Source: Bacillota bacterium
GTDB taxonomy: Bacteria > Bacillota > Sulfobacillia > JAJZYS01 > JAJYTV01
Assembly (NCBI GenBank): GCA_021799275.1
Contig: JAJZAT010000022.1
Coordinates: forward strand, 1-58,470
DNA: 58,470 nucleotides
Reading direction: 5' to 3'
Shown here: piece after piece, positions 9,381-22,913 of the stretch
How positions within the stretch are numbered: position 1 is the first letter of the stretch
How the letters are laid out: the number at the start of each line of letters is the position of its first letter
Made by a program: the position numbers and the translations under genes
Notes under the pieces: model-generated
What the model saw: the letters and a program-made list of their open reading frames with translations, nothing else
The model's database searches: none
Told to the model about the DNA's origin: nothing

Positions 9381-10148
9381 TCACCTGGACGCCTCCCGAA
9401 AGCTGACGCGCAGGACTAGGGCAACAGCCAGTCCGATGACCGGCAAGACTGCGGGCCACGCAACTTCTGGCAGCGTGCCCGACGGGAGCGACGTCACCAT
9501 CCCGTCGGACGAAAAGGCGGCAAAGGAGATCGGGGTGCTGTCGTATCCTGGCGGGGCGGGGAAATTGCAGATCGTCATGCCGGCACTGGGTGGGTTCGGC
9601 ACGCAGTCGCTTGGTGGAATGTAAGCCGCGACATGCGGGCTTCCGGACTGTGCGGGCAGCAGCCCGAGCAGATAGACCTCGGTCCCGGCGGGTACATGCT
9701 TGAGGATGGCGGCGAGCGGCGTCCCAGCGGGTCTTGGGCCCTGCGGCGCAATCTGCAGGTCCATCGGATGTGTTCGTCCTACCAGCGTCAGAGCGATCCA
9801 GTACTCGGGATTCGCGGTCGAACCGGGTACGACGCCGCCAACCGCGCCCGAATCCAGTTCGCTAGCCGAAGGAGTCAGGGTCCCTTCTGCCACGATGCTG
9901 CCACCGTAGCGGACCCCCAGGAGAACAACGCGCGTCCCCTGAGGCAGCGAGGCAGGCGGAAAGGTGATCTCGAGGCGGCTGGCGGCCCTTAGCTTCCCGT
10001 CGTAAGGGATGCCTACGACCAGGGTTGGCACGGCTGAGGCGGGTGCGGCCCGGCCGGGTCGGCTAAGCAGGAAGAGCGCGGCCCCTGTCGCGACAACAGC
10101 GGTCACCGTCGCAACCCACAATAGACGCCCCATCACTGGGTGGCGCAA
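9381..10148 (-). CDS. Secreted protein with C-terminal LPEV-type sorting signal
   Basis: 255 residues from TTG 10148, which has GAGGAGG 10 nt upstream; ATG 10133 is the alternative. The N-terminus has a signal-anchor-like segment (LLWVATVTAVVATGAALFLL), then a beta-rich, Pro/Gly/Ser-rich body of about 170 residues with no recognised family. The C-terminus is tripartite: the motif LPEV at about residue 226, a hydrophobic segment (LPVIGLAVALVLRV) and a short basic tail. LPEV-x5-LPVI is spaced exactly as in the secreted protein at 17467-18105, which lies next to an exosortase gene. It is a probable surface protein processed by that enzyme. The body suggests an extracellular matrix or envelope role, but that is speculative. 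Confidence 0.7.
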   Translation of the reverse strand: MRHPVMGRLLWVATVTAVVATGAALFLLSRPGRAAPASAVPTLVVGIPYDGKLRAASRLEITFPPASLPQGTRVVLLGVRYGGSIVAEGTLTPSASELDSGAVGGVVPGSTANPEYWIALTLVGRTHPMDLQIAPQGPRPAGTPLAAILKHVPAGTEVYLLGLLPAQSGSPHVAAYIPPSDCVPNPPSAGMTICNFPAPPGYDSTPISFAAFSSDGMVTSLPSGTLPEVAWPAVLPVIGLAVALVLRVSFREASR

Positions 10149-10379
10149 AGGATCGTTGCCTCCTCGTGTGGCGCGAGTGTAGCAAAGCGCGCTTGCGCGT
10201 TCAGTACAGCGGACAGTGTCAGCCACGGTTTCAGCCGCACCCACCGGCAGAGCGCCCCGAATCCTGGCGAGCGTGAGGGAAGGCCCAAGAAGTGTGGCGT
10301 ATGCCCTTCGACGTCCTTCACCGAAGCATTGCCGCGGTCAAGGCTATCCTGCGGTAAGAGGGGATACCGGGGGTACGCC

Positions 10380-12284
10380 ATGTCCATCGAAGAGGCGCTC
10401 CTTGAAATCGAGGCGCAGCAGTTCATCGGCCGACGGGACGAACTGGCCCGTATCGAGCGGTTGCTGGAGCGGGCCCGCACCGAGGCGAGCGTCGCGTACG
10501 TCTACGGGCAGCGTGGGATCGGCAAGACCGCCCTGCTGCGGGCGGCGCAGCGAGCCTCCGAACGGCGAGGCATCGAGACCGTCGCCGTCACCGTGGAACG
10601 CGACGCAGCGGCGGACCAAGTGATAGGACGAATCGCCACATCGATGCACCTGGACCCGGCCAGGACGACCCGGGATGAGGTGTTGGCCGCGATCTCGGCT
10701 TTGGGGACGTACGGCCTTCTCCTCATTCTTGACGATTACGACCTGCTCGGGCCTGGCGAGGCCGTCTTGCGCACCCGGTTCCTGTACCGGCTGCCGCCAG
10801 GCGTGGCGGCGGTGCTGTCGGGGCGTATGCACCCATCGACGCTCTGGCCGCTCGAACGGGCATGGCGCAGCTTTGTGGAACGCCTCCCACTTTCCGACCT
10901 GTCCATGGTCGATGCTGAAAGGTTCCTGCAACTGCACGGCGTCGAGGACCCGGTGGTGCAGCGCGAGGCGAACCGCCTAACGGGCGGCAGACCAGCCCTG
11001 CTGGCGCAAGTGGCCGACGTGCTCGGCAGCGAGACCGAGGTGGCGGCGACCGGCGACATCGGGATCCTCAGCCTTCGACCCTCCGGCGGCACGCAGACGC
11101 TCATTCTCGAGCAGCTCCTGCACCCTGGATCGCGTCGCGCGGCCTGGCGTGCGGAGGACGCGACGGAAGCATACGATCTCGTTCTCCAGGCCGCCTCGCT
11201 CCTGCCCTACTTCAGCCGGAGCCTCTTGGCTGCCATGCTTGGTGACGAGACGGTGGCGGCAGGTTGGGAGGTTCTTGAGCGCCTTCCCTCCAGCCTCGAA
11301 CCCGGCGGTTGGCACCGTCTGGGCGAAAGCCTTCGCCGGCCGGTGGCGGCCATCGTCGCCAGGGAGCGGCCATGGCTCCGGCAGGTGTGGCTACGGCGCG
11401 CCGTCCGCCGTCTGCTCACCGAAGATGAGCGGGTTGGGCAGCAGGAGCATGCACTTGCCCTCTGGCTTTTGCTTGAACTGGACGATCCGTCCGCGGTGGA
11501 AGTTCCGTCCGCACCAGTGGTCGGCTTAGCGGCGCTTCGCGAGGCGCTAGACCTCTTTGCCCTGCCTTGGTTGACGGCGGCCAGCGCCGACGGCGTCGCA
11601 GGGGTGCTCGTGGTGCCGGCCGACGACGGGTTGGCCCGCGGGGCGGCTCTTCTGGCCCCAGCCTCACTGGTCCCTGGCGACGCGTTGCCGGGGCCGCTGC
11701 CCGAAGGCTCGATGTTCCTGGCCATTGCGGCGAAGGATCCGGTGGCCGTCGGTCCGCTGCTTGGTCTGCTCGCGGCCGCCATGGAGGCCCGACAGAATGT
11801 GGCGGTGCTTGGAGTCGGAGCCGCGGCGCAGGTCCTTGAACGCCTCGGCCTGCAGCCTATCGCGAGGCACCTCTTTTTGCTTGGCGTGGGCGAGGGCGGG
11901 GCCAGGGCATCGCTGCAACTGTTGGCGGGCCGCCGCCTCAGTGCGGTGCCCGTGGCGGATTGCGCGGCGCTCGCCAAGGAGGCGCTGCAGGCCTACGCTG
12001 CCGGTGGGCGTCTCGGAGACACCCGACTCGGGGACGTCTACAGGGCACAGGCGGGACAGGGTGGGGAGCCGGAGCTTCGGCGCTGGCTGCTCGATGCGCT
12101 CGCCAGCGCCCAGCTCGGAGAGACCCCCTGCTCCCGCAGCCTTCTCCTACGGCTCTATTACGTTGACAAGGCCGGGTCGCACGAGGACATCGCCGAGCGG
12201 CTGGACTTGCCGCGCGCCTCGTACTTCCGGGCCTATCGTGAGGCGCTAGCCGCGTTCGGGAGCGCTCTCTGCGGCGCGTACTAA
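10380..12284 (+). CDS. Large AAA+/STAND-like ATPase with C-terminal HTH
   Basis: 634 residues from ATG 10380, preceded by a GGGGG-rich SD. An AAA_16-type ATPase fills residues about 15-250: FIGRRDELARIERLLERA, Walker A YGQRGIGKTALL, Walker B LLILDDYDLLGPG. The middle is helical and unassigned. The last 40 residues contain a helix-turn-helix-like HEDIAERLDLPRASYFRAYR. This is the plan of STAND or AAA transcriptional regulators that sense a ligand and bind DNA. It is divergent from the LPEV protein gene with a 231-bp spacer, so it may regulate surface-protein genes. It ends in a 4-bp convergent overlap with the glycosyltransferase gene. Confidence 0.7.
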   Translation: MSIEEALLEIEAQQFIGRRDELARIERLLERARTEASVAYVYGQRGIGKTALLRAAQRASERRGIETVAVTVERDAAADQVIGRIATSMHLDPARTTRDEVLAAISALGTYGLLLILDDYDLLGPGEAVLRTRFLYRLPPGVAAVLSGRMHPSTLWPLERAWRSFVERLPLSDLSMVDAERFLQLHGVEDPVVQREANRLTGGRPALLAQVADVLGSETEVAATGDIGILSLRPSGGTQTLILEQLLHPGSRRAAWRAEDATEAYDLVLQAASLLPYFSRSLLAAMLGDETVAAGWEVLERLPSSLEPGGWHRLGESLRRPVAAIVARERPWLRQVWLRRAVRRLLTEDERVGQQEHALALWLLLELDDPSAVEVPSAPVVGLAALREALDLFALPWLTAASADGVAGVLVVPADDGLARGAALLAPASLVPGDALPGPLPEGSMFLAIAAKDPVAVGPLLGLLAAAMEARQNVAVLGVGAAAQVLERLGLQPIARHLFLLGVGEGGARASLQLLAGRRLSAVPVADCAALAKEALQAYAAGGRLGDTRLGDVYRAQAGQGGEPELRRWLLDALASAQLGETPCSRSLLLRLYYVDKAGSHEDIAERLDLPRASYFRAYREALAAFGSALCGAY

Positions 12285-13018
12285 GCCGGAGGCGACTCTC
12301 GCGACGCGGCTATCTCAAGGTTGGCTCGGCTTCTGGCCACCAGCCGCACGAGTATCGCGGCCGAGCGGAGGTAATCGCTCGCGCTGGCTCGACGTGGCCG
12401 CAGACGTAGCTGTCGTAGCGGGAACGGGAGGATCTCGAGATGTCTGCGTCTCGCAAGCAGCAGAGCCTCGACGTCGAACAGCCACCCCGGCTCCGTCAGT
12501 TGGGTCGAGATGTCACGGGCAAACCAGCCGGGAAACATCTTGATCCCCGCCTGCGTGTCCCGGACCGGCAGATGTGCGACGTAGTGGATGACGCCGCGCG
12601 CGAGCCGTGAGGTGAGACGTTCGAGACGGCTGCGCTCGTCGGCTTGCCGGACGCCCACGGCGCAGGTCTGCTGCGGTGCCAAGCCACTTTCCACGGTGCG
12701 CAGCATCCGCACCAGAAGCGCGGGAGGAAATTCGAGGTCCGCGTCGATGAATGCGCACTGATCACCCGTGCTGGCCGAGAATCCCGTCGCGATGGCCGCG
12801 CCTTTGCCGAGGGGCTGCGCGTGGCTCAGGACCCGCAAGGGAAAGTTCCGGCAGAGATCCGCGGCCTCCGAACGGGTTTCATCGCTCGACGCGTCGTCGA
12901 CCACGACGATCTCATGCCCGATTTGCGCCTGCTCCAGCACCTCGTGGACCGTTCGCACCGCCCTGCCAATGCGCCCCGCTTCGTTGCGTGCTGGGATCAC
13001 CACAGTGAGCTGCGGCAT
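12281..13018 (-). CDS. Glycosyltransferase family 2, polyprenyl-phosphate sugar transferase type
   Basis: 245 residues from ATG 13018 with SD GAGAGGGGA. The GT2 domain is complete: LTVVIPARNEAGRIGRAV at the N-terminus, IVVVDDASSDET nucleotide site and CAFIDADLEFPP as the DxD-like motif; GTQAGIK-like DTQAGIKMF and a GWLFDVE segment follow, as in dolichol-phosphate mannose synthase and DPG synthase-like enzymes. These load a sugar from a nucleotide donor onto a lipid carrier for use outside the membrane. The GT39-like membrane protein at 21291-22913 could use such a donor. No transmembrane anchor is seen. Confidence 0.88.
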   Translation of the reverse strand: MPQLTVVIPARNEAGRIGRAVRTVHEVLEQAQIGHEIVVVDDASSDETRSEAADLCRNFPLRVLSHAQPLGKGAAIATGFSASTGDQCAFIDADLEFPPALLVRMLRTVESGLAPQQTCAVGVRQADERSRLERLTSRLARGVIHYVAHLPVRDTQAGIKMFPGWFARDISTQLTEPGWLFDVEALLLARRRHLEILPFPLRQLRLRPRRASASDYLRSAAILVRLVARSRANLEIAASRESPPA

Positions 13019-13333
13019 CCGCGTCCCCTCTCCGGCATCGACGAACTCGCTTAGCACGTACCACCCGTGACTTGGGAAGACAGTAGCGAAGGTTCTGCAA
13101 GGCCCGGTCCCGAGGGAGGTATCAGCGGCCTTTGGACTACAGGCCCGTTGCGGACCCGCGGCGCTGGATGCGCCTTCGGGCCCAGAGGACCGGCATCTGG
13201 CGATCTCGTGGAACGTGTGCGCGCGCCCCCGTGTCGGCACGGACGCGACACGGGCCCCGATACCAGGGTCGAGACTGCGCCGAGCGCCCGCTTGCGTTAC
13301 GTTTCGAACACGAAGTGAGCCGCCGGAGGGAAC
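13019..13333. other. Intergenic region, divergent promoters of the glycosyltransferase loci
   Basis: 315 bp between divergent genes. No credible ORF with a ribosome binding site was seen. It contains short GC-rich inverted repeats (for example around 13200-13260) but no structure matched to a known RNA family. Promoters for both flanking genes must lie here. Confidence 0.4.
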
Positions 13334-13909
13334 ATGGGCGAGATGGATGAGACCTGGATGTCGTCGCGCCTGGCCGCGCACAGACGCAGGCACACGCCGC
13401 GACATGCCGCAAGGAGCGGTGTCGGGGAGGGCGTGCGCCGCCGGCGGGCAATGGCGAAGGAGCCACACGTGGACGCCCTGTCGAACGCGCCGTCTCGCGT
13501 GCGGGACGTCATGGACCAGCTGACCCAGGAGGATCTACGTTTCCTGGCGCGGTTTGCGGCCTTCCTGGCGGAGCAGCACCTCGGTGCTCCGCTTGTGGAA
13601 GCCAATTGGTCCCAGGGAGCGGTTCAGGCGGCGGCCACGAGCGAGAGCGCCGTCATCCGGGAGGCGGTCGCGATCGTGATCGGGCCCTGCGAGGGGCCCG
13701 AGCAGTCGTCTCATATCGCCCGGAACATCGCTGATGCCCCGGGATTCGAACTGCTGATCCACTCCTTCCGGGACGGCTACCACCACCTCGACGGACGCAC
13801 GGACGACCCCAACGCCTTGGCGGCATGGGCCGCCTGCCAGCCCGACGTCGACAGCGTGGAACTCGATCTGGACGTTCTGCGGGTCGTCCCGAGGGTAGAG
13901 ACGCCATGA
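13334..13909 (+). CDS. Conserved-context hypothetical protein, first gene of a glycosyltransferase operon
   Basis: 191 residues from ATG 13334 with GGAGGG 3 nt upstream. The first 40 residues are very basic with a His/Arg cluster (HRRRHTPRHAAR). Residues about 50-75 are a helical acidic stretch (VMDQLTQEDLRFLARF). The remainder is mixed alpha/beta with a WAACQPDVDSVELDLDV C-terminal part. No known family was recognised. Its stop overlaps the ATG of the tiny membrane protein, which in turn overlaps the large glycosyltransferase, so the three are translationally coupled and likely work together. Confidence 0.6.
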   Translation: MGEMDETWMSSRLAAHRRRHTPRHAARSGVGEGVRRRRAMAKEPHVDALSNAPSRVRDVMDQLTQEDLRFLARFAAFLAEQHLGAPLVEANWSQGAVQAAATSESAVIREAVAIVIGPCEGPEQSSHIARNIADAPGFELLIHSFRDGYHHLDGRTDDPNALAAWAACQPDVDSVELDLDVLRVVPRVETP

Positions 13910-14073
13910 AGGGGCTGGGTGCCGTGCTGGCCGTTGTTCTGGCCGGCGTGTGGCTCGGCTGGATGGTGGGCATGCACTGGTACACGGAGGTCTTGCCCGT
14001 CGCCGCGCTGCTCGCCCTGGTTGGCTACTACGGCTTGGTCTCGTCGCGAGCGGACAGAGGGTCACGCCCATGA
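13906..14073 (+). CDS. Tiny two-helix membrane protein (55 aa), partner of the glycosyltransferase
   Basis: ATG 13906 overlaps the previous stop (ATGA) and its own TGA overlaps the next ATG at 14070. Two hydrophobic helices (VLAVVLAGVWLGWMVGM and VLPVAALLALVGYYG) are joined by HWYTE. It is clearly related to the C-terminal part of the protein at 20430-21071: both carry WL-(x2)-MVGMxW-(x3)-VLP and then a (Y)YY helix end, and both precede a glycosyltransferase. It is probably a small accessory subunit of membrane glycosyltransferases. Too small for the usual gene finders, but the double overlap and the paralogue support it. Confidence 0.75.
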   Translation: MKGLGAVLAVVLAGVWLGWMVGMHWYTEVLPVAALLALVGYYGLVSSRADRGSRP

Positions 14074-16244
14074 ACCAACTGGTGGCGGAGCGGGATCCGC
14101 TCCCCTGGATCCGTCTGGAGCCCCGGCGTCGCTTCGGTCGGACGGTGGACCCGGTCCGGCCGGAAGCGGCAGCCCTTGTCGCCCTGCAGGATGCCTTGCG
14201 GCTGGGCGTTCTGCCGTTCGCCGTCTCGACGCGGGGTCTCCTCGTGGCAAGCGTGGACGAGCCGGGCGACGAGCAACTGGAACTCCTGGCGGACGTCGCC
14301 ATGCCCCTTGTCTGGGCACGCGCCACGCGGGACGAACTGGAGGCGGCGGTGTCGAGAACGTTGGGCCGCCCGCTGCGTTTCGGGCAGTGGGCGGTGCGCC
14401 TTCGCTGCGCGTCCCTGCCGGCGGTGCTATCGGCCCTCGAGACCCAGGCGCGGTCCGGGGGGAGAATCGGAGAACTCCTGGTGGGTGCGGGTACGATCAC
14501 GAGCCGGGACGTGGCAGAAATCCTGGGCAGGCAGCAGGCGGTACCGTTTGTGGATCTGCTGGCAGGGGGACTGAGCCCTCGCCCGGATCTCCTTTCCCTG
14601 ATGCCCGAGGGCTTCTGGCGCCGCGAACAGGCGGTACCGTTTGCCCAGAGCGGGGACCGCCTCTACGTCGCCGCGGAAGATCCGGCCCGCTTCAAGCGTG
14701 TGTTGAAGCGCCTGGAGCTACGGACCGGGAAGGAGGTGCGACTCTTCGCCTGCGGGCGTCGTGACGTGGAGCGCACCTTGGAGCGGCACTATCGCGGCGA
14801 GTACCTGAGACAGAGCCGTGAGGCGCTGCTCGAGGCGAGTCCGCAGGACTCCGCCATCCACCTGCTCACGCGGCGCCAGGCCGTCTTCTTAGGCTCTGCC
14901 CTGGCGCTGTTGGCGCTTGGCCTCTGGGGCGCGACGTCCCAGGTCCTGCTCGCGTTGAGCATCGTGGTGCAGGCCGCCTACGTGGCGCTCGTGACCTTCA
15001 AGCTGTGGCTTGTGCGCCGGCCGACAAGGGAACTCGTCGAGCGGTATGTGACACAGGCGGAACTGGCGGCGCTCGACGCCCGTCGTTTGCCCACGTATAC
15101 AATCCTTGTGCCGTTGCGCGACGAGGCAGAGGTGCTCATGCAACTGGCTCAGGCGCTCGACCGCCTGGATTATCCGCATGACCGCCTTGACATCAAGCTC
15201 CTGCTGGAGGAGGACGACCGCAGAACGCTGGCCGCGTCCAGGGCACTGAAGCTTCCGGCCTGCTTCGAGATCGTCGTCTTGCCGGACGCGGAGCCGCGTA
15301 CGAAGCCCAAAGCCTGCAACTACGGGCTCCTGCACGCGAGAGGCGAGTATGTCGTGATCTACGACGCCGAGGACATGCCTGAGCCGGACCAGCTTAAGAA
15401 GGCCGTGGCCGCGTTCCGGATGGCGGATCCCAGGGTGGCGTGCGTGCAGGCGAAGCTTTCGTATTACAACCGCCTGCAGAACTCCCTGACGCGTTGGTTC
15501 ACGGCCGAGTACGCGATGTGGTTCGACCTGCTGCTTCCGGGACTGCAGGCGGCACGCATGCCGATCCCTCTCGGCGGTACCTCGAACCATCTGCGGGTCG
15601 CCGCGCTGCGGCAGGTGGGAGGTTGGGATCCCTACAATGTCACCGAGGACGCGGATCTCGGCATCCGTCTGCACAAGGCCGGTTACCGCACTCTCCTGAT
15701 CAATTCCGACACGTACGAGGAGGCGAACGCCGAATTCGTCAACTGGGTGCGGCAGCGCTCACGCTGGGTGAAGGGGTATGTGCAGACCTGGCTCGTCCAT
15801 ATGCGCCACCCAGGCAGTCTCCTGCGGGAGCTGGGCTGGCGCGGCTTTATCGGCTTCCAGGCGATGATCCTCGGTACGCCGCTGACATTTCTCCTCAACC
15901 CTGTGCTCTGGCTCGTGACGACGGCCTGGTTCCTGACGGCGGCCGGCGCCATCGAGGCCATGTTCCCGACCTGGGTCTATTACGTCGGCATGTTGACGAT
16001 GCTGTCCGGCAACTTCACGTTCGCCTATCTCAACATGATCGCCTTGGCCCGGCGAGGGGAATGGGATCTGATGGAAAGTGCGGCCACGTCACCGCTCTAC
16101 TGGATGTTGATGTCGTTGGCTGCCTGGAAGGGCATGCTGCAGCTCCTGACGCGTCCCTCCCACTGGGAGAAGACGGTGCACGGACTTTGGCGGCCCCAGG
16201 CGACAAGGATGCCCGGTGCCGTTGGGCAAGGTGCGGCCGACTGA
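14070..16244 (+). CDS. Membrane processive glycosyltransferase 2 with N-terminal MshEN/GspE-N domain
   Basis: 724 residues from ATG 14070. Residues about 130-260 match a type II secretion GspE N-terminal (MshEN) domain: GRIGELLVGAGTITSRDVAE and later FWRREQAVPFAQSGDRLYVA. A GT2 catalytic domain follows: YTILVPLRDEAEVLMQL, YDAEDMPEPDQ (DxD), EDADLG and the processive QRSRWVKG motif. Hydrophobic segments lie before and after the catalytic domain. Cellulose-synthase-like proteins with this fusion (NfrB-like) synthesise or export surface polysaccharides and in NfrB are gated by an MshEN domain binding cyclic di-GMP. Here a cyclic di-GMP switch is an inference. It is in an overlapping operon with two smaller genes. 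Confidence 0.88.
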   Translation: MNQLVAERDPLPWIRLEPRRRFGRTVDPVRPEAAALVALQDALRLGVLPFAVSTRGLLVASVDEPGDEQLELLADVAMPLVWARATRDELEAAVSRTLGRPLRFGQWAVRLRCASLPAVLSALETQARSGGRIGELLVGAGTITSRDVAEILGRQQAVPFVDLLAGGLSPRPDLLSLMPEGFWRREQAVPFAQSGDRLYVAAEDPARFKRVLKRLELRTGKEVRLFACGRRDVERTLERHYRGEYLRQSREALLEASPQDSAIHLLTRRQAVFLGSALALLALGLWGATSQVLLALSIVVQAAYVALVTFKLWLVRRPTRELVERYVTQAELAALDARRLPTYTILVPLRDEAEVLMQLAQALDRLDYPHDRLDIKLLLEEDDRRTLAASRALKLPACFEIVVLPDAEPRTKPKACNYGLLHARGEYVVIYDAEDMPEPDQLKKAVAAFRMADPRVACVQAKLSYYNRLQNSLTRWFTAEYAMWFDLLLPGLQAARMPIPLGGTSNHLRVAALRQVGGWDPYNVTEDADLGIRLHKAGYRTLLINSDTYEEANAEFVNWVRQRSRWVKGYVQTWLVHMRHPGSLLRELGWRGFIGFQAMILGTPLTFLLNPVLWLVTTAWFLTAAGAIEAMFPTWVYYVGMLTMLSGNFTFAYLNMIALARRGEWDLMESAATSPLYWMLMSLAAWKGMLQLLTRPSHWEKTVHGLWRPQATRMPGAVGQGAAD

Positions 16245-16353
16245 CGTGGCGCACCATGCCCACTGGCCGCGTACGGAGCCTTGGACGGCGCTCAGGGCCC
16301 AGGGCGAGCGGCTTGTTTCGAGAGTCCCATGAAATTGGGCGAGAGGGTGACGA

Positions 16354-17055
16354 ATGGAACAGACGTGCGTTGCCTTTCATCTGGAGCAGAGTGGAGGACA
16401 CTTCTGGTTCGGATCGAGGCGTAGCTTTTTGCAGTCGCGCCTGCTTTCCTTGTTCAAGAGAGACGACGTACTGCTGGACATCGGCTGTGGGGACGGCAGG
16501 GAACTCGACTGGATGCTTCGTCATGTGGGTCGGGCCTACGGCATTGAACCCGATGCGCGCCTTGGAGCGGCGGCTCGGGCACGTGGGCTGAGAGTCCAAA
16601 GCATGCGGTTTTCCACCGTGGACAGCGTCGAATGCACCCCTACGTTCGTTACGATGTTCGACGTGCTCGAGCATCTACCCGACGATCGGGAGGCGATGCG
16701 TCAGATCCATCGCCTTCTCCCGGCGGGCGGCGTCTTTGCCGTCACGGTGCCTGCGCACCAGTGGCTGTGGACTGGTCACGACGTCGCCAACCACCACTAC
16801 CGGCGCTATTCGAAACCCGCGCTTCTGACCGCTCTGCGAGGAGCCGGGTTCAAGATCGATCGGGTGGAGTGGTTCGGTGCGGCAGCGCTGTTGACGGCGG
16901 TCACGTTGAAGTGGCTTGGGCGCGATCAAGGTGCGCTTATCCAATCCAAGCACGGGTTCGTGACGAAGATCGCGACTTGGATGTACACGATGGAACGTTA
17001 CACCCGGGTCCCTTTTGGTCTAAGTCTCTTTGTTGTTGCCATCAAGCCTGATTAG
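16354..17055 (+). CDS. Class I SAM-dependent methyltransferase
   Basis: 233 residues. Motif I DVLLDIGCGDGRELDW, then MFDVLEHLPDDREAM and the LLPAGGVFAVTVPAHQWLW stretch typical of methyltransferase_11/23-type sugar or lipid-carrier methylases found in polysaccharide clusters. The C-terminal part has a hydrophobic patch (AAALLTAVTLKWLG) that may touch the membrane. It lies 109 bp after the large glycosyltransferase and is followed by a strong hairpin, so it may be the last gene of that operon. Target unknown. Confidence 0.82.
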   Translation: MEQTCVAFHLEQSGGHFWFGSRRSFLQSRLLSLFKRDDVLLDIGCGDGRELDWMLRHVGRAYGIEPDARLGAAARARGLRVQSMRFSTVDSVECTPTFVTMFDVLEHLPDDREAMRQIHRLLPAGGVFAVTVPAHQWLWTGHDVANHHYRRYSKPALLTALRGAGFKIDRVEWFGAAALLTAVTLKWLGRDQGALIQSKHGFVTKIATWMYTMERYTRVPFGLSLFVVAIKPD

Positions 17056-17392
17056 GACATCGCCCGGACCTACCCGACGTCTGCAAGCAGCGATCAAGCC
17101 GCGCCAGAGGCCTTCACACCAGGGAGCCATTGCCCTTGAGGCGAGCGATTCGCAGAGACGGGCGGCGAGCTTAGGCGGTTCGCCAGGTGTCTGCATGCCT
17201 TGTCGAGTCACCCGAAGATGTCGCCCTTGCGGTTGCCGCGGCTTGGGCTCCCGCGCGAGCTGTCGCACCGCGTGCAACGGTCTCGACCCCAGCGCCGACT
17301 CGGGGAGCGACATGGTCAACGGGGAGGGTTCAAGTAGCGGTTCGACTGGGCTCGAGATTGACTGCAGACTATCCGCGAGGCGGCTGGCGCAC
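17056..17392. other. Non-coding region between convergent genes
   Basis: About 340 bp. ORFs on both strands lack ribosome binding sites and recognisable protein features. It ends in the strong hairpin described next; otherwise nothing identified. Confidence 0.4.
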
Positions 17393-17437
17393 GGCATGAA
17401 GCGGGCGGCGAGCAATGCTCGCCGCCCGCTTCATGCC
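17393..17437. terminator. Long perfect hairpin between convergent genes, bidirectional terminator-like
   Basis: Arms of 22 bp (17393-17414 and 17416-17437) pair perfectly around a single central base. The stem is GC-rich, built on GGCATGAAGCGGGCGGCGAG. It lies between the ends of the methyltransferase gene (+) and the LPEV surface protein gene (-). There is no long T run, so termination may be of the hairpin-only type, or it may be a DNA-level palindrome. Confidence 0.65.
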
Positions 17438-17466
17438 GCTTTGCATCGGTCAAGCCAGGCTTCAAC

Positions 17467-18105
17467 TCAGCCTTGCTGCCGCCGCCTGCGACCAAGGACT
17501 ACGGCCCCACCGATCCCGGCGATCAGGATGACTGGCAACCCGAAAGTGTAAGGTACCTCCGGGAGGGAGTTGGGCGGGATGTCGATAAGACCCATAACGT
17601 CGCTCATCGTGCTCCAGCCCTTTCCGCCGTTGCCGACCTCCGCCGCGAAGATCTCCAACACGCCGGGGCTGTTTTCAACATACCACTGGTGCACGGTCGT
17701 GCCGGACTCATACTCTTGGGTGCTGTTGTACCAAGCGGCTCCCGTCTTCCAGTCCACCGTGAACTGGCAGTGCCAACTCGTGGGATCTGTGACGTCGTCC
17801 GGCACGCAGGACTGTTGGGCAATTTCCAGAGGCTCATAGCCCGCGTGGTCGGAAGGACCCGGCTCAGGGGCGAAGTACAAGTTTACGCCTGTCGCGATGT
17901 CAGTCTTCACCTTCGTCACCGTGACCGTGTACACCGTGGACGACGCGTCGATGCCAGACACGGCCTTGAGGTCGGACAGCGTGAGACCCGTCCCTGACGT
18001 CGTCGCGGCACTGGCAGGCACCGCGACCGCGGCGATTGCCAAGAATGCAGCGGCGCCCGCCAGTGTCCGCAGCCAAGTGCGGGGCTTCGTCATCATCCGG
18101 AACAT
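17467..18105 (-). CDS. Secreted surface protein with C-terminal LPEV-type sorting signal, exosortase partner
   Basis: 212 residues from ATG 18105 with a strong GGAGGGAGA SD. A classical signal peptide ends AAVAVPASA-ATTSG near residue 33. The body is about 145 residues, beta-rich and rich in Thr, Ser and Val, with paired Cys (QQSC and WHCQF). The C-terminus is LPEV at residue 181, spacer PYTFG, hydrophobic LPVILIAGIGGAVVL, then four Arg: the motif-helix-basic plan of PEP-CTERM or LPXTG substrates. It lies 195 bp downstream of the exosortase gene on the same strand, so it is very probably a dedicated substrate. No known domain was recognised in the body. Confidence 0.8.
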   Translation of the reverse strand: MFRMMTKPRTWLRTLAGAAAFLAIAAVAVPASAATTSGTGLTLSDLKAVSGIDASSTVYTVTVTKVKTDIATGVNLYFAPEPGPSDHAGYEPLEIAQQSCVPDDVTDPTSWHCQFTVDWKTGAAWYNSTQEYESGTTVHQWYVENSPGVLEIFAAEVGNGGKGWSTMSDVMGLIDIPPNSLPEVPYTFGLPVILIAGIGGAVVLGRRRRQQG

Positions 18106-18299
18106 CAGGTTCTCCCTCCTCCGCAGAACGCTGGGCGCAGGAAGCAACTGCCTGTGGCCGATGTTACCGGCGTTGGCAGGCTCGCGCACGCCCAAAGTAG
18201 GTATCACTTGCGGTCGCACTTCTTGTGTTCCCTCCTGGACTTCGCGGGTTTGGCCCTTAGAGCAGACGCCGAGGGGGTACCCTCCCGTCCTCTTGAGGC

Positions 18300-19973
18300 T
18301 CAGGGGATTCCAGCGGCCTCAAGGGGCTGCGGTACACCTTCCTGCTTGGCAACGGTCCGGGCCAGCTCGGTCGCGAAGCGCTCGAGATGTCCCTGGGTCT
18401 GGTGGAGAACTTGTGGCCACGATCCGAACGCCGGAGGCATCGCGACGGCAGACATACCTGTTGCGGGTGCAGGTGACCGGATGGCAGATAGGCTTTTCGG
18501 CCACTCCGCCGTACTTTGGGGCAGGGCGGCGACGGCGTAGCGCAGGTAGCGCACGCTCCCGTCCGGGATCCGCACCGCGCTCTCCCATTCGATGTCCTCG
18601 TAGCTGGCCCACGCGGCTCCGACCTCCACAGGAGGAAGTTGCAGCGCGTAGTCTGCCGCAGCGGTCGCGGGGGCTACGTCGAACACTCGCATCGCGTTCG
18701 TCCGCTCGCCGTGGAAGGCGAGGCAGTCCCGGAAGCCGTAGCTTTCGAGGTTTCCGAGGTCCGGTGTTGACCAGACCTCCGCGAGCACCTGGGCGCCACC
18801 CCGGGAGACGTAGGTGTCGGCGAAGCTTACCGCCCCCGGACCGAGAATGCTCGAATCGTCGAAACGTTGGACCTTTGTCACGCGGAAACCAGGAAGCCGG
18901 GGCAAGAGCGCGGCGACGCCCGCGGTACGCACCTGCAGGGGCTTGCCCGGGGCACCGTACGGGGTGGTGAAGAGCGGCCAGAGGCTGACGAACAGCGCCG
19001 CGCCCATAAGCCAGGAGCCACCTTTCCGACCCCAACCCACCGGAGGCAGGCGCAGCGTGCTCGGCGGCTGCGGGACCAGCCCCAACTGCCTTGCCGCGGC
19101 CAGGAGGAGTAGGGCCAGTAGCGCGAACAGGACGAAGCCGAGCATGGGGTGCAGTAAGCCAAACGTGAAGGCGCTGCCCGCAAAGTGTATCGACGCCATG
19201 ATCGCCGCCAGGCGCAGCAGGTTGAACAGGATCGCTCCCGCTAGCGCGCCGACGATGAGCAATCCCTTGCGCCAAGCCACCCCGACGTACTGGGTGAGCA
19301 GGACAGGAAGGATGATCGCCACGCCAAGTGCGCTGTCGGCTCCGCTGCAGGCCTGCGAGATGACCACCGGCACAAGCGAGCCATGGCCCGCGACGAGGAA
19401 CGCGCCAGGTTGTCCTTGGGCCGTGATCCAAGGGATGAATCGGCTGAGGTGGGCTATGGAGGTGATCGCGACCTGCACGAGTACACCCTGTGTCACCGTG
19501 GCCACCGCGCCGAGCAGCGGTGGCCAGCTGAATAGAAGGTAGGCCAGCGGCCCCACCAACGCGGGTGTCACCCCGACACCGAACAGGAGCCAGGCCATTC
19601 CGAGCGTCCAGAGCGGCCAGAGCAGGAGGCCCGCGCTTTGCATCACAAAGAGGTAAGGCCAGCGGGCAGGCCCGATCACGAGCGCAGCGCCGACAACGAG
19701 CAGGAGCCCACCGCCCAGGATGGCGTCAAGTTCGGAATCGTCGTTCACCGGTGTGCAGCGTTGGATCCCGGATGCCCCCCAGAGGACGGCGAGAAGAGGA
19801 ATCCATATTAGGTAGGCAGTCGGCGTGTCGGCCAACACGTTCTGCCAAAGGGGCAGGGCATACGCTGCGAGCGGGACGAGCGAGAGAAGTCCCCATGCCG
19901 CGAGGCGAGCCGCCTGGCCGGTGGATCCGTGCGCCCGGGCCGCGGTGATCAACGAGCCACCCCCGCTCGGCAC
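18300..19973 (-). CDS. Exosortase-family transpeptidase with C-terminal extracytoplasmic domain
   Basis: 557 residues. Residues 20-315 form about eight to ten membrane helices. They contain the exosortase/archaeosortase triad signature: Cys209 in ISQACSGADS, Arg254 in FNLLRL and His275 in LLHPMLGF, in the usual order. Exosortases cleave C-terminal sorting signals on secreted proteins at the outer face of the membrane. After one more helix (about 330-345) a soluble domain of about 210 residues follows, with NLESYGFRDCLAFHGE, somewhat reminiscent of EpsI/DUF3485 domains fused to or encoded beside exosortases. The start is GTG 19973, weakly supported; TTG 19952 is an alternative. Known exosortase subfamilies cannot be assigned by eye. 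Confidence 0.82.
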   Translation of the reverse strand: MPSGGGSLITAARAHGSTGQAARLAAWGLLSLVPLAAYALPLWQNVLADTPTAYLIWIPLLAVLWGASGIQRCTPVNDDSELDAILGGGLLLVVGAALVIGPARWPYLFVMQSAGLLLWPLWTLGMAWLLFGVGVTPALVGPLAYLLFSWPPLLGAVATVTQGVLVQVAITSIAHLSRFIPWITAQGQPGAFLVAGHGSLVPVVISQACSGADSALGVAIILPVLLTQYVGVAWRKGLLIVGALAGAILFNLLRLAAIMASIHFAGSAFTFGLLHPMLGFVLFALLALLLLAAARQLGLVPQPPSTLRLPPVGWGRKGGSWLMGAALFVSLWPLFTTPYGAPGKPLQVRTAGVAALLPRLPGFRVTKVQRFDDSSILGPGAVSFADTYVSRGGAQVLAEVWSTPDLGNLESYGFRDCLAFHGERTNAMRVFDVAPATAAADYALQLPPVEVGAAWASYEDIEWESAVRIPDGSVRYLRYAVAALPQSTAEWPKSLSAIRSPAPATGMSAVAMPPAFGSWPQVLHQTQGHLERFATELARTVAKQEGVPQPLEAAGIP

Positions 19974-21145: not shown

Positions 21146-21294
21146 CGATGCTCGCCCATCGGTTATTGGTGGCTCCTCTTGAAGCTACCTTGCCGACCTT
21201 CGTGCCTCCATGCCGGGGGGCCAGCGCACTGAAAGAACTTGCGGATGTCACGCGGCTGGGACGATCGGATGCGCTGTGCGCGGGGCCATCATGA
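21142..21294 (+). CDS. Putative 50-aa protein in a stop/start-coupled chain
   Basis: The ATG overlaps the stop of the 25-aa ORF and the TGA overlaps ATG 21291 of the GT39-like gene. The peptide has no recognisable domain; it is mildly hydrophobic at the start (MLAHRLLVAPLEATLPTF) and has two Cys. It is supported only by the unbroken chain of ATGA junctions. Confidence 0.35.
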   Translation: MTMLAHRLLVAPLEATLPTFVPPCRGASALKELADVTRLGRSDALCAGPS

Positions 21295-22913
21295 GCGCTG
21301 CTGCTAGGCCGACGGCCCAAGCCGTCAGCCGCCCGCTTGTGGGGGGAGGCACTCAGGTCCATGGGCGACCGGCGGGCGCGTTGCCGCTTGCACTCGGGAT
21401 CGGAGCGCTCGACCTGGTGCTCGGCCTGTACATCAACGTGCAGTTGCACTACCTCAACGGCGACGCCTTTTCACGTGTCGCGAACGCATACTACGTACTC
21501 TACGGCCGCAATCCCCACCTGGCGGCCATCGGCTTCATCTGGAACCCACTTCCCTCGGTCATGGAACTACCGTTCCTATTTCTGCGAAGCGTTTGGCCGG
21601 CACTGGCGGCGGATGCTGTCGCGAGCCTGTTCGTGAGTGCGGCCTTCGCCGGTATCGCTGTCTACTACTTGAGCGACACGCTGCGTCTCTTTGGGCTTGG
21701 CACGGTTTGGCGCATCACGTTTGCCCTGCTCTTCGCATGCAATCCGATGATCGCGTTCTACTCCGCCAATGGCATGAGCGATATCATGCTGGTCGGCGCG
21801 ATGGCGGCGGCGGTGCGCGGGACGGTAGGCTACGTGCTGCAGAGTTCTCTGGCGGACCTCATCGCAGCGGGCGTATGGCTTGCGGTGGCGTTCGGCATCC
21901 GTTACGAAGGCGCGCCTCTCGGGGTTTTCCTTGCCCTTGGCCTTGGCATCGCGCTGTGGTGGCTGCAGCGGGGGGCAAGAGAGATCCGCGGAGGCATGCT
22001 GCTCCTGCTCGCTCCGCTCCTCTACGTGTCGGGCCTGTGGGTGTACCTGAACTGGCTGATCATGAAGCAGCCGCTCTACTTTCTCGATTCGGCCTATGGC
22101 AACGTGGCGCAGACGTCGATGGGCCTGGCCACGACCCTGGCGGGGGCCCAGCACCACATCATCGGCTCCCTTCTGTTCGTCGCGCATATGGGCCTGCTGT
22201 TCTGGCCCGTGGCCGTAGGGTTGGTCGCCGCGGTCGCGCTGTCGGTCGGCAAATGGCGCGACCCCATCGCACCGGTGTTGATCGGCGCGACCGTAGGCAT
22301 GCCGCTATTGCAGGTTGCTCTGGTATTCGAGGGGCACAGCGGCGGGTGGGCAAGGTACTTCATCTACTACATCCCGAACGGCATTCTGCTCCTGGCCTTC
22401 GCGGCGAGTCGCGTGCGGCGCACCCTCGCGCGCAACGCCGCGTTGATCGTGGCGGCTCTCCTCTGCATTGGCGGTAATGCGGTGAACCTCTATGAGGAAA
22501 CGAACTCCCCGGTGGTTGGATACGGCGACACCGAGCCATTCACCGGCATCCTGGTCGGCAAACGCTTCGTCACGTACCGGACGGACGACCAGATCGCCAC
22601 CTACCTCGACCGCCATCCGAAGCTCACCGTGCTTCTGGATTCGTTTGACGGGTACCCGATCGTACTCCGTGTGCGCAACCCAAGACAGCTCATCATCACG
22701 TCAGACACCGACTTCCAGAGCGTTCTGGAGAATCCGGCCGGGCGTGTCGACGCGCTGCTCGTGCCCCAACCAGATGGTGACGCGACACTGGATGCGGTCA
22801 ACCGCTCATTTCCGAAACTCTGGGCGGGCGGGGTACCTTGGGCGCATCTCATGGCCAGCTTCCCAGGAGGTACTGCTTGGCGCCTCTATGGGGTCGGCGC
22901 GGGCGCACCGTAA
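21291..22913 (+). CDS. Multi-pass membrane glycosyltransferase, GT39/ArnT-like
   Basis: 540 residues from ATG 21291. About eleven to twelve hydrophobic helices run between residues 30 and 420. An early extracytoplasmic loop has LNGDAFSRVANAYYVLYG, the position and kind of acidic motif seen in GT-C enzymes, followed by GFIWNPLPSVMELPFL. The soluble C-terminal part of about 120 residues follows. GT-C proteins of this type move a sugar from a polyprenyl-phosphate donor to a protein or glycan outside the cell, which fits the GT2 carrier-loading enzyme at 12281-13018. Acceptor unknown; the LPEV surface proteins are natural candidates. Confidence 0.72.
   Translation: MSAAARPTAQAVSRPLVGGGTQVHGRPAGALPLALGIGALDLVLGLYINVQLHYLNGDAFSRVANAYYVLYGRNPHLAAIGFIWNPLPSVMELPFLFLRSVWPALAADAVASLFVSAAFAGIAVYYLSDTLRLFGLGTVWRITFALLFACNPMIAFYSANGMSDIMLVGAMAAAVRGTVGYVLQSSLADLIAAGVWLAVAFGIRYEGAPLGVFLALGLGIALWWLQRGAREIRGGMLLLLAPLLYVSGLWVYLNWLIMKQPLYFLDSAYGNVAQTSMGLATTLAGAQHHIIGSLLFVAHMGLLFWPVAVGLVAAVALSVGKWRDPIAPVLIGATVGMPLLQVALVFEGHSGGWARYFIYYIPNGILLLAFAASRVRRTLARNAALIVAALLCIGGNAVNLYEETNSPVVGYGDTEPFTGILVGKRFVTYRTDDQIATYLDRHPKLTVLLDSFDGYPIVLRVRNPRQLIITSDTDFQSVLENPAGRVDALLVPQPDGDATLDAVNRSFPKLWAGGVPWAHLMASFPGGTAWRLYGVGAGAP

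Follow-up and report, generated by a model that had tools for sequence, protein, structure and literature searches.

Does a contig from a member of the Sulfobacillia encode an exosortase together with a C-terminal sorting signal of its own? Exosortases were first tied to outer-membrane bacteria, and what they attach proteins to is, to our knowledge, still an open matter in general. The class is described as a group of Gram-positive, acid-mine bacteria, and Sulfobacillus thermotolerans Kr1, for example, has been treated as Gram-positive (PMC6803676). The window analysed here is the entire contig C26 (58,470 bases) of a 3.14-Mb draft genome in 61 contigs. An earlier note on its sequence described two secreted proteins ending in a common pattern (LPEV-x5-LPVI, a hydrophobic helix, and a basic end), one of them right after an exosortase-like gene, and proposed a dedicated sorting system in a Gram-positive setting. 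We examined this proposal in the window, in a class sample of 151 Sulfobacillia genomes, and in a phylum sample of 398 genomes.

An exosortase with a second set of invariant residues

The exosortase gene (18300–19973, minus strand) codes for a 557-residue protein with an N-terminal multi-helix membrane domain (residues ~17–335) and a C-terminal extracytoplasmic domain (~345–545). It scores 42.7 bits against Pfam PF09721 (Exosortase_EpsH; cut-off 25.7) and 32.2 bits against the NCBIfam exosortase/archaeosortase signature TIGR04178 (cut-off 23), and these family models, together with the Cys/Arg/His motifs and a cognate tripartite tail signal in the same genomes, place it in the exosortase/archaeosortase superfamily. 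The catalytic signature of the earlier note is numbered exactly: Cys209, the predicted nucleophile (CSGAD, 19347–19349), Arg254 (NLLR, 19212–19214), and His275 (HPMLG, 19149–19151) are all encoded on the minus strand and are invariant in 22 homologues, and C-S-G, N-L-L-R, and H-P-M-L-G correspond to the three motifs described for EpsH (PMC1569441). On this protein the NCBIfam models for the named subtypes XrtV, XrtA, XrtW, and XrtG stay well short of their cut-offs, and no NCBIfam model covers either this subtype or the LPEVP signal described below. Its nearest named relatives are recorded simply as Bacillota MAGs, and neither sequence searches nor Foldseek found a solved relative.

A second invariant set, Cys417-x3-His421 (18711–18725, minus strand), is evident in the C-terminal domain from the alignment of homologues, and Arg478 is likewise invariant; the long-type relatives share this arrangement of a membrane domain followed by an outer domain of ~200 residues in which a separate Cys, His, and Arg are invariant. 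The C-terminal domain matches no Pfam or NCBIfam model, and searches of this domain in 22 members with the EpsI models (DUF3485, PF11984 / EpsI models) gave no match at E up to 10, a result still compatible with a distant fold relation. The AlphaFold2 model of the full-length protein has a mean pLDDT of 83.5, and the C-terminal domain modelled alone reaches 90. The predicted fold of this domain aligns with Mog1 (Z 8.3, rmsd 4.5 over 148 residues) and with the EagR chaperone SciW, DcrB, LpqN, and PsbP (Z 7–8; unrelated rows below 5), values near the level reachable by a common arrangement, and Foldseek returned no E below 0.001 with it. The modelled domain may resemble the Mog1/PsbP group. It could either be catalytic or hold the substrate helix.

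Two secreted proteins with a common tail

Both substrate genes lie on the minus strand, as does the exosortase gene; all three coordinates were given correctly in the earlier note, which did not state the strand. Substrate 2 (17467–18105, 212 aa) has a signal peptide (MFRMMTK...VPASA-ATT) and a good ribosome-binding site, and its C-terminus is ...NSLPEVPYTFGLPVILIAGIGGAVVLGRRRRQQG; pattern and profile searches place the tail signal, LPEVPYTFGLPVI-helix-GRRRRQQG plus stop, at 17467–17565 (minus strand). Its orthologue adjoins the exosortase in locus L068. Substrate 1 (9381–10148, 255 aa) is also secreted, starts at a TTG codon after GAGGAGG, and ends in ...GTLPEVAWPAVLPVIGLAVALVLRVSFREASR, with a tail signal, LPEVAWPAVLPVI-helix-basic end plus stop, located by the same searches at 9381–9473 (minus strand); it has A-W in the tail where others have P-W. 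In the window, 8 kb separate it from the exosortase; in L069 and L070, tail-bearing orthologues with 41–50% body identity directly adjoin the exosortase gene. Apart from their tails the two window proteins are dissimilar, as the earlier note had remarked, and neither body has a Pfam or PHROGs match; among eight other representative substrate bodies a domain was recognized in only one (a GLUG motif).

Searching the complete 3.14-Mb genome for LPEV-x4..7-LP[VI] returned the two substrate tails and one further match, which falls within an enoyl-CoA-hydratase-like protein and was discarded as a chance occurrence. A signal profile whose building sequences included both window tails matched the substrate tails at 7e-13 and 2.5e-8, with the next match in the genome at 0.12. 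When the profile was built without any member of the window families, substrate 2 was recovered with a genome-scaled E of 2e-5 and substrate 1 was not, and support for substrate 1 is therefore taken from its body homology.

A conserved tag on unrelated proteins

Genes adjoining homologous exosortases in the class repeatedly share the same ending (e.g. QLPEVPWAAGLPLLSLIPLGISIKRRSIRA), and substrates adjoin the exosortase in most loci. Alignment of 29 tails gives the consensus LPEVPxAAxLP-helix-RR, in which P-E and the second P are invariant. The two window tails share LPEV-x5-LP, the helix, and the basic end; the terminal 'VI' of the originally described pattern is not conserved, and LPEVP[WY]AA[GA]LP describes the tag better. 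A tail profile (E ~1e-4 or better) finds the signal in 30 of the 151 class genomes, with up to six copies per genome. Approximately 85 distinct tail-bearing proteins were retrieved. Every one of them has two or more Arg/Lys among its final 14 residues, and an N-terminal hydrophobic segment is detectable in at least 72; the tag lies a median of 31 residues from the end, and of 71 core motifs found in the fetched loci 70 are tail motifs. The further signal-bearing proteins that the earlier note anticipated are therefore plentiful in relatives, but the window genome itself has only two.

With the tails removed, the bodies form ~30 clusters whose mutual similarity is undetectable, and one common tail on ~30 unrelated bodies is a hallmark of a sorting signal. 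A helix followed by basic residues is also a stop-transfer anchor, and cleavage of LPEVP proteins is only predicted; our search of the open literature for a link between LPEV/LPEVP and exosortases or sorting yielded nothing pertinent, and no report of processing. The tail might accordingly be a mere C-terminal membrane anchor on proteins that stay uncut, with a motif derived from shared ancestry or from the general insertion machinery. A plain anchor would require neither a kept motif nor an exosortase, however, and the pre-helix motif is constant over the ~30 unrelated bodies while the helix sequence itself is not kept, and the presence of the motif tracks that of the exosortase. We regard an anchor without sorting as very unlikely.

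Co-occurrence of tail and exosortase

In the class sample, 26 genomes have both the signal and the exosortase, four have only the signal, five only the exosortase, and 116 neither (Fisher p = 3e-20, a value that overstates independence because these genomes are related). In the phylum sample the signal is present in four of four genomes with this exosortase versus none of the 394 others, and five other genomes of that sample have remote exosortases and no LPEVP signal. In the window's genus, both occur in four genomes and neither in two, of which one is 99% complete. The signal is thus not equally frequent where the exosortase is missing, and its distribution over ~85 proteins and its co-occurrence with the enzyme support the interpretation as a dedicated sorting system.

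In two of the four signal-only genomes the contig breaks inside the exosortase locus: in G129 it ends 363 bases past the substrate that normally precedes the exosortase, and in G110 the signal-bearing contig spans just 4.8 kb and represents a piece of the same locus. In the other two, G062 (97% complete) and G139, the signal is present and the exosortase was not found. Among the exosortase-only genomes, G017 and G146 have a related PETPY tail instead, G105 and G121 have a full two-domain exosortase with no LPEVP protein detected, and G038 is incomplete.

The window genome also encodes one sortase (G000:C43:34694), and LPXTG signals have the same three-part layout beginning with LP and serve an enzyme with the same cysteine transpeptidase logic, such that the LPEV tail might be an LPXTG-like variant served by that sortase with the exosortase nearby by coincidence. 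The enzyme families are nonetheless unrelated, and the signal does not follow sortase: it is absent from 47 sortase-bearing genomes, and seven signal-bearing genomes in which no sortase was found all have the exosortase (7/7). Among exosortase genomes sortase is unrelated to the signal (p = 1.0), whereas among sortase genomes the exosortase still predicts it (p = 9e-10). The tag itself (LPEVP, or LPEVA) has no T-G, V-P standing in its place, with the second proline invariant, and none of the LPXTG models reached cut-off, either on the two window tails or on nine substrates of relatives. A sortase variant is the least credible of the explanations we considered.

Our preferred reading is that the LPEVP tail signal and this exosortase constitute an enzyme-signal pair in which the exosortase reads the tag, and we assign this a probability of roughly 0.85. 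Enzyme, tag, and pairing are each supported by sequence and by distribution across genomes.

Relationship to known exosortase systems

The closest parallel is the PEP-CTERM/EpsH system (TIGR02595 / TIGR02602, PF09721), which likewise combines an EpsH-type enzyme carrying C-x-G, N-x-x-R, and H-x3-G motifs with many unrelated substrates ending in tag, helix, and basic end, and with polysaccharide genes nearby. The window system could be a divergent form of it with PEV for PEP, as the enzyme family and triad are common to both, the tail layout is the same, a PE pair is followed closely by proline, and glycosyltransferases are adjacent. However, the tag here is LPEVP[WY]AAxLP rather than VPEP, and the C-terminal domain is distinct and is matched by none of the EpsI models (E up to 10). 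With the PEP-CTERM models, neither window substrate matched at E up to 1 and none of nine substrates of relatives matched at E up to 10, and no CTERM model reached its cut-off on these sequences; the earlier note's view that the signal is neither LPXTG nor PEP-CTERM is upheld on the window tails, where neither kind of model reaches cut-off. The exosortase subtype models are also far from their cut-offs, with 32.8 bits for TIGR02602 (cut-off 105.55) and 25.7 bits for TIGR03109 (cut-off 208). Finally, the best-known members of the host class are described as Gram-positive, whereas PEP-CTERM was tied to an outer membrane (PMC1569441). A divergent PEP-CTERM system is therefore improbable in our estimation. 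In a 2017 comparison of bioleaching bacteria, Leptospirillum ferriphilum was the only one reported to have a PEP-CTERM exosortase system (PMC5418355).

The Gram-positive setting highlighted in the earlier note agrees with how the host class is described but is not a novelty, since XrtG with Firmicu-CTERM is an exosortase system already known in Gram-positive bacteria (PMC12854382). XrtG/Firmicu-CTERM of Bacillota (TIGR03110) resembles the window system in that a Gram-positive exosortase adjoins glycosyltransferases, but TIGR03110 gives the window exosortase only 17.9 bits against a cut-off of 102.75, and Firmicu-CTERM has no match in the tails tested (two from the window, nine from relatives). 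XrtG in Lactiplantibacillus has one Firmicu-CTERM partner (PMC12854382), in contrast to the up to six unrelated substrates here. XrtP and its associated glycosyltransferase (NF012139, NF053846) also pair an exosortase with a family 2 glycosyltransferase, but the neighbour in the window, which contains an MshEN domain, reaches 41.5 where the cut-off is 520, and the XrtP model has no match to the window exosortase. What is new is thus an exosortase/tail-signal pairing inside the known exosortase/CTERM kind.

Gene neighbourhood and a proposed mechanism

Near the exosortase, 20 of 25 loci have a polysaccharide-synthase-like gene combining an MshEN domain with a family 2 glycosyltransferase (13950–16244 in the window, plus strand); MshEN domains are cyclic-di-GMP binders. 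A putative multi-helix membrane glycosyltransferase (21210–22913, plus strand) belongs to a cluster found in 19 of 25 loci, with weak family matches that make its function tentative, and genes homologous to the family 2 glycosyltransferase at 12281–13468 (minus strand) are present in 13 of 25. The locus also includes an AAA/STAND-type ATPase and possible regulator (10140–12284, plus strand), with relatives in 8 of 25 loci, and a class I methyltransferase (16354–17055, plus strand) recognized by Pfam search. The glycosyltransferases beside the exosortase loci suggest polysaccharide as the most likely acceptor.

In the enzyme-signal pairing that we favour, substrates would be exported via their N-terminal signal peptides and retained in the membrane through the C-terminal helix, whose basic end would face inward, leaving LPEVP[WY]AAxLP at the outer face. 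The exosortase would bind the tag, and Cys209, with Arg254 and His275, would attack a peptide bond in or near it; we infer cleavage by Cys209 from what is known of exosortases and archaeosortases. The helix would then be released and the protein handed to a surface acceptor. From the gene neighbourhood, this acceptor may tentatively be a glycan or a glycolipid that the adjacent glycosyltransferases synthesize. A fuller picture, which we consider rather doubtful, is a single-membrane multi-substrate system: a two-domain exosortase whose outer domain holds another conserved Cys/His/Arg site would cleave LPEVP tails and attach the proteins to a polysaccharide, with c-di-GMP switching the polysaccharide synthase through MshEN. 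A Gram-positive, culturable Sulfobacillus with a many-substrate system would offer a less complex envelope for direct measurement of cleavage and acceptor, and the signal names a set of surface proteins in bioleaching organisms, where mineral attachment matters.

Other exosortases and tails in the class

A tree of the class exosortases, in which named exosortases were not included, served only to split long from short types. Genome G109 has two long copies on separate contigs (L074 and L075), each with its own adjacent LPEVP substrate. Full two-domain exosortases at L071:470–2191 and L072:10154–11773 are in genomes where no LPEVP tail was detected even at E = 5, and these likely use a different cognate signal. 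At L143:2185–2484 an LPEVPWAAGLP tag precedes an unusual tail of 50 residues that lacks the helix, perhaps reflecting a frameshifted substrate gene.

The second, shorter exosortase type (~330 aa) is without the C-terminal domain and is represented by L094:9405–10412, L096:9385–10389, L097:9512–10492, and L098:9601–10569. Each adjoins or overlaps a gene for a 93–144 aa protein ending in P[EQ]TPYAxxFP-helix-YR[RK], apparently an enzyme and its dedicated substrate, distinct from the LPEVP system. In L095 (8071–9573 and 9676–12234) a 500-aa exosortase is followed by two proteins ending in TPETPYTAIFA-helix-RRRRNAG, another tail variant of related form.
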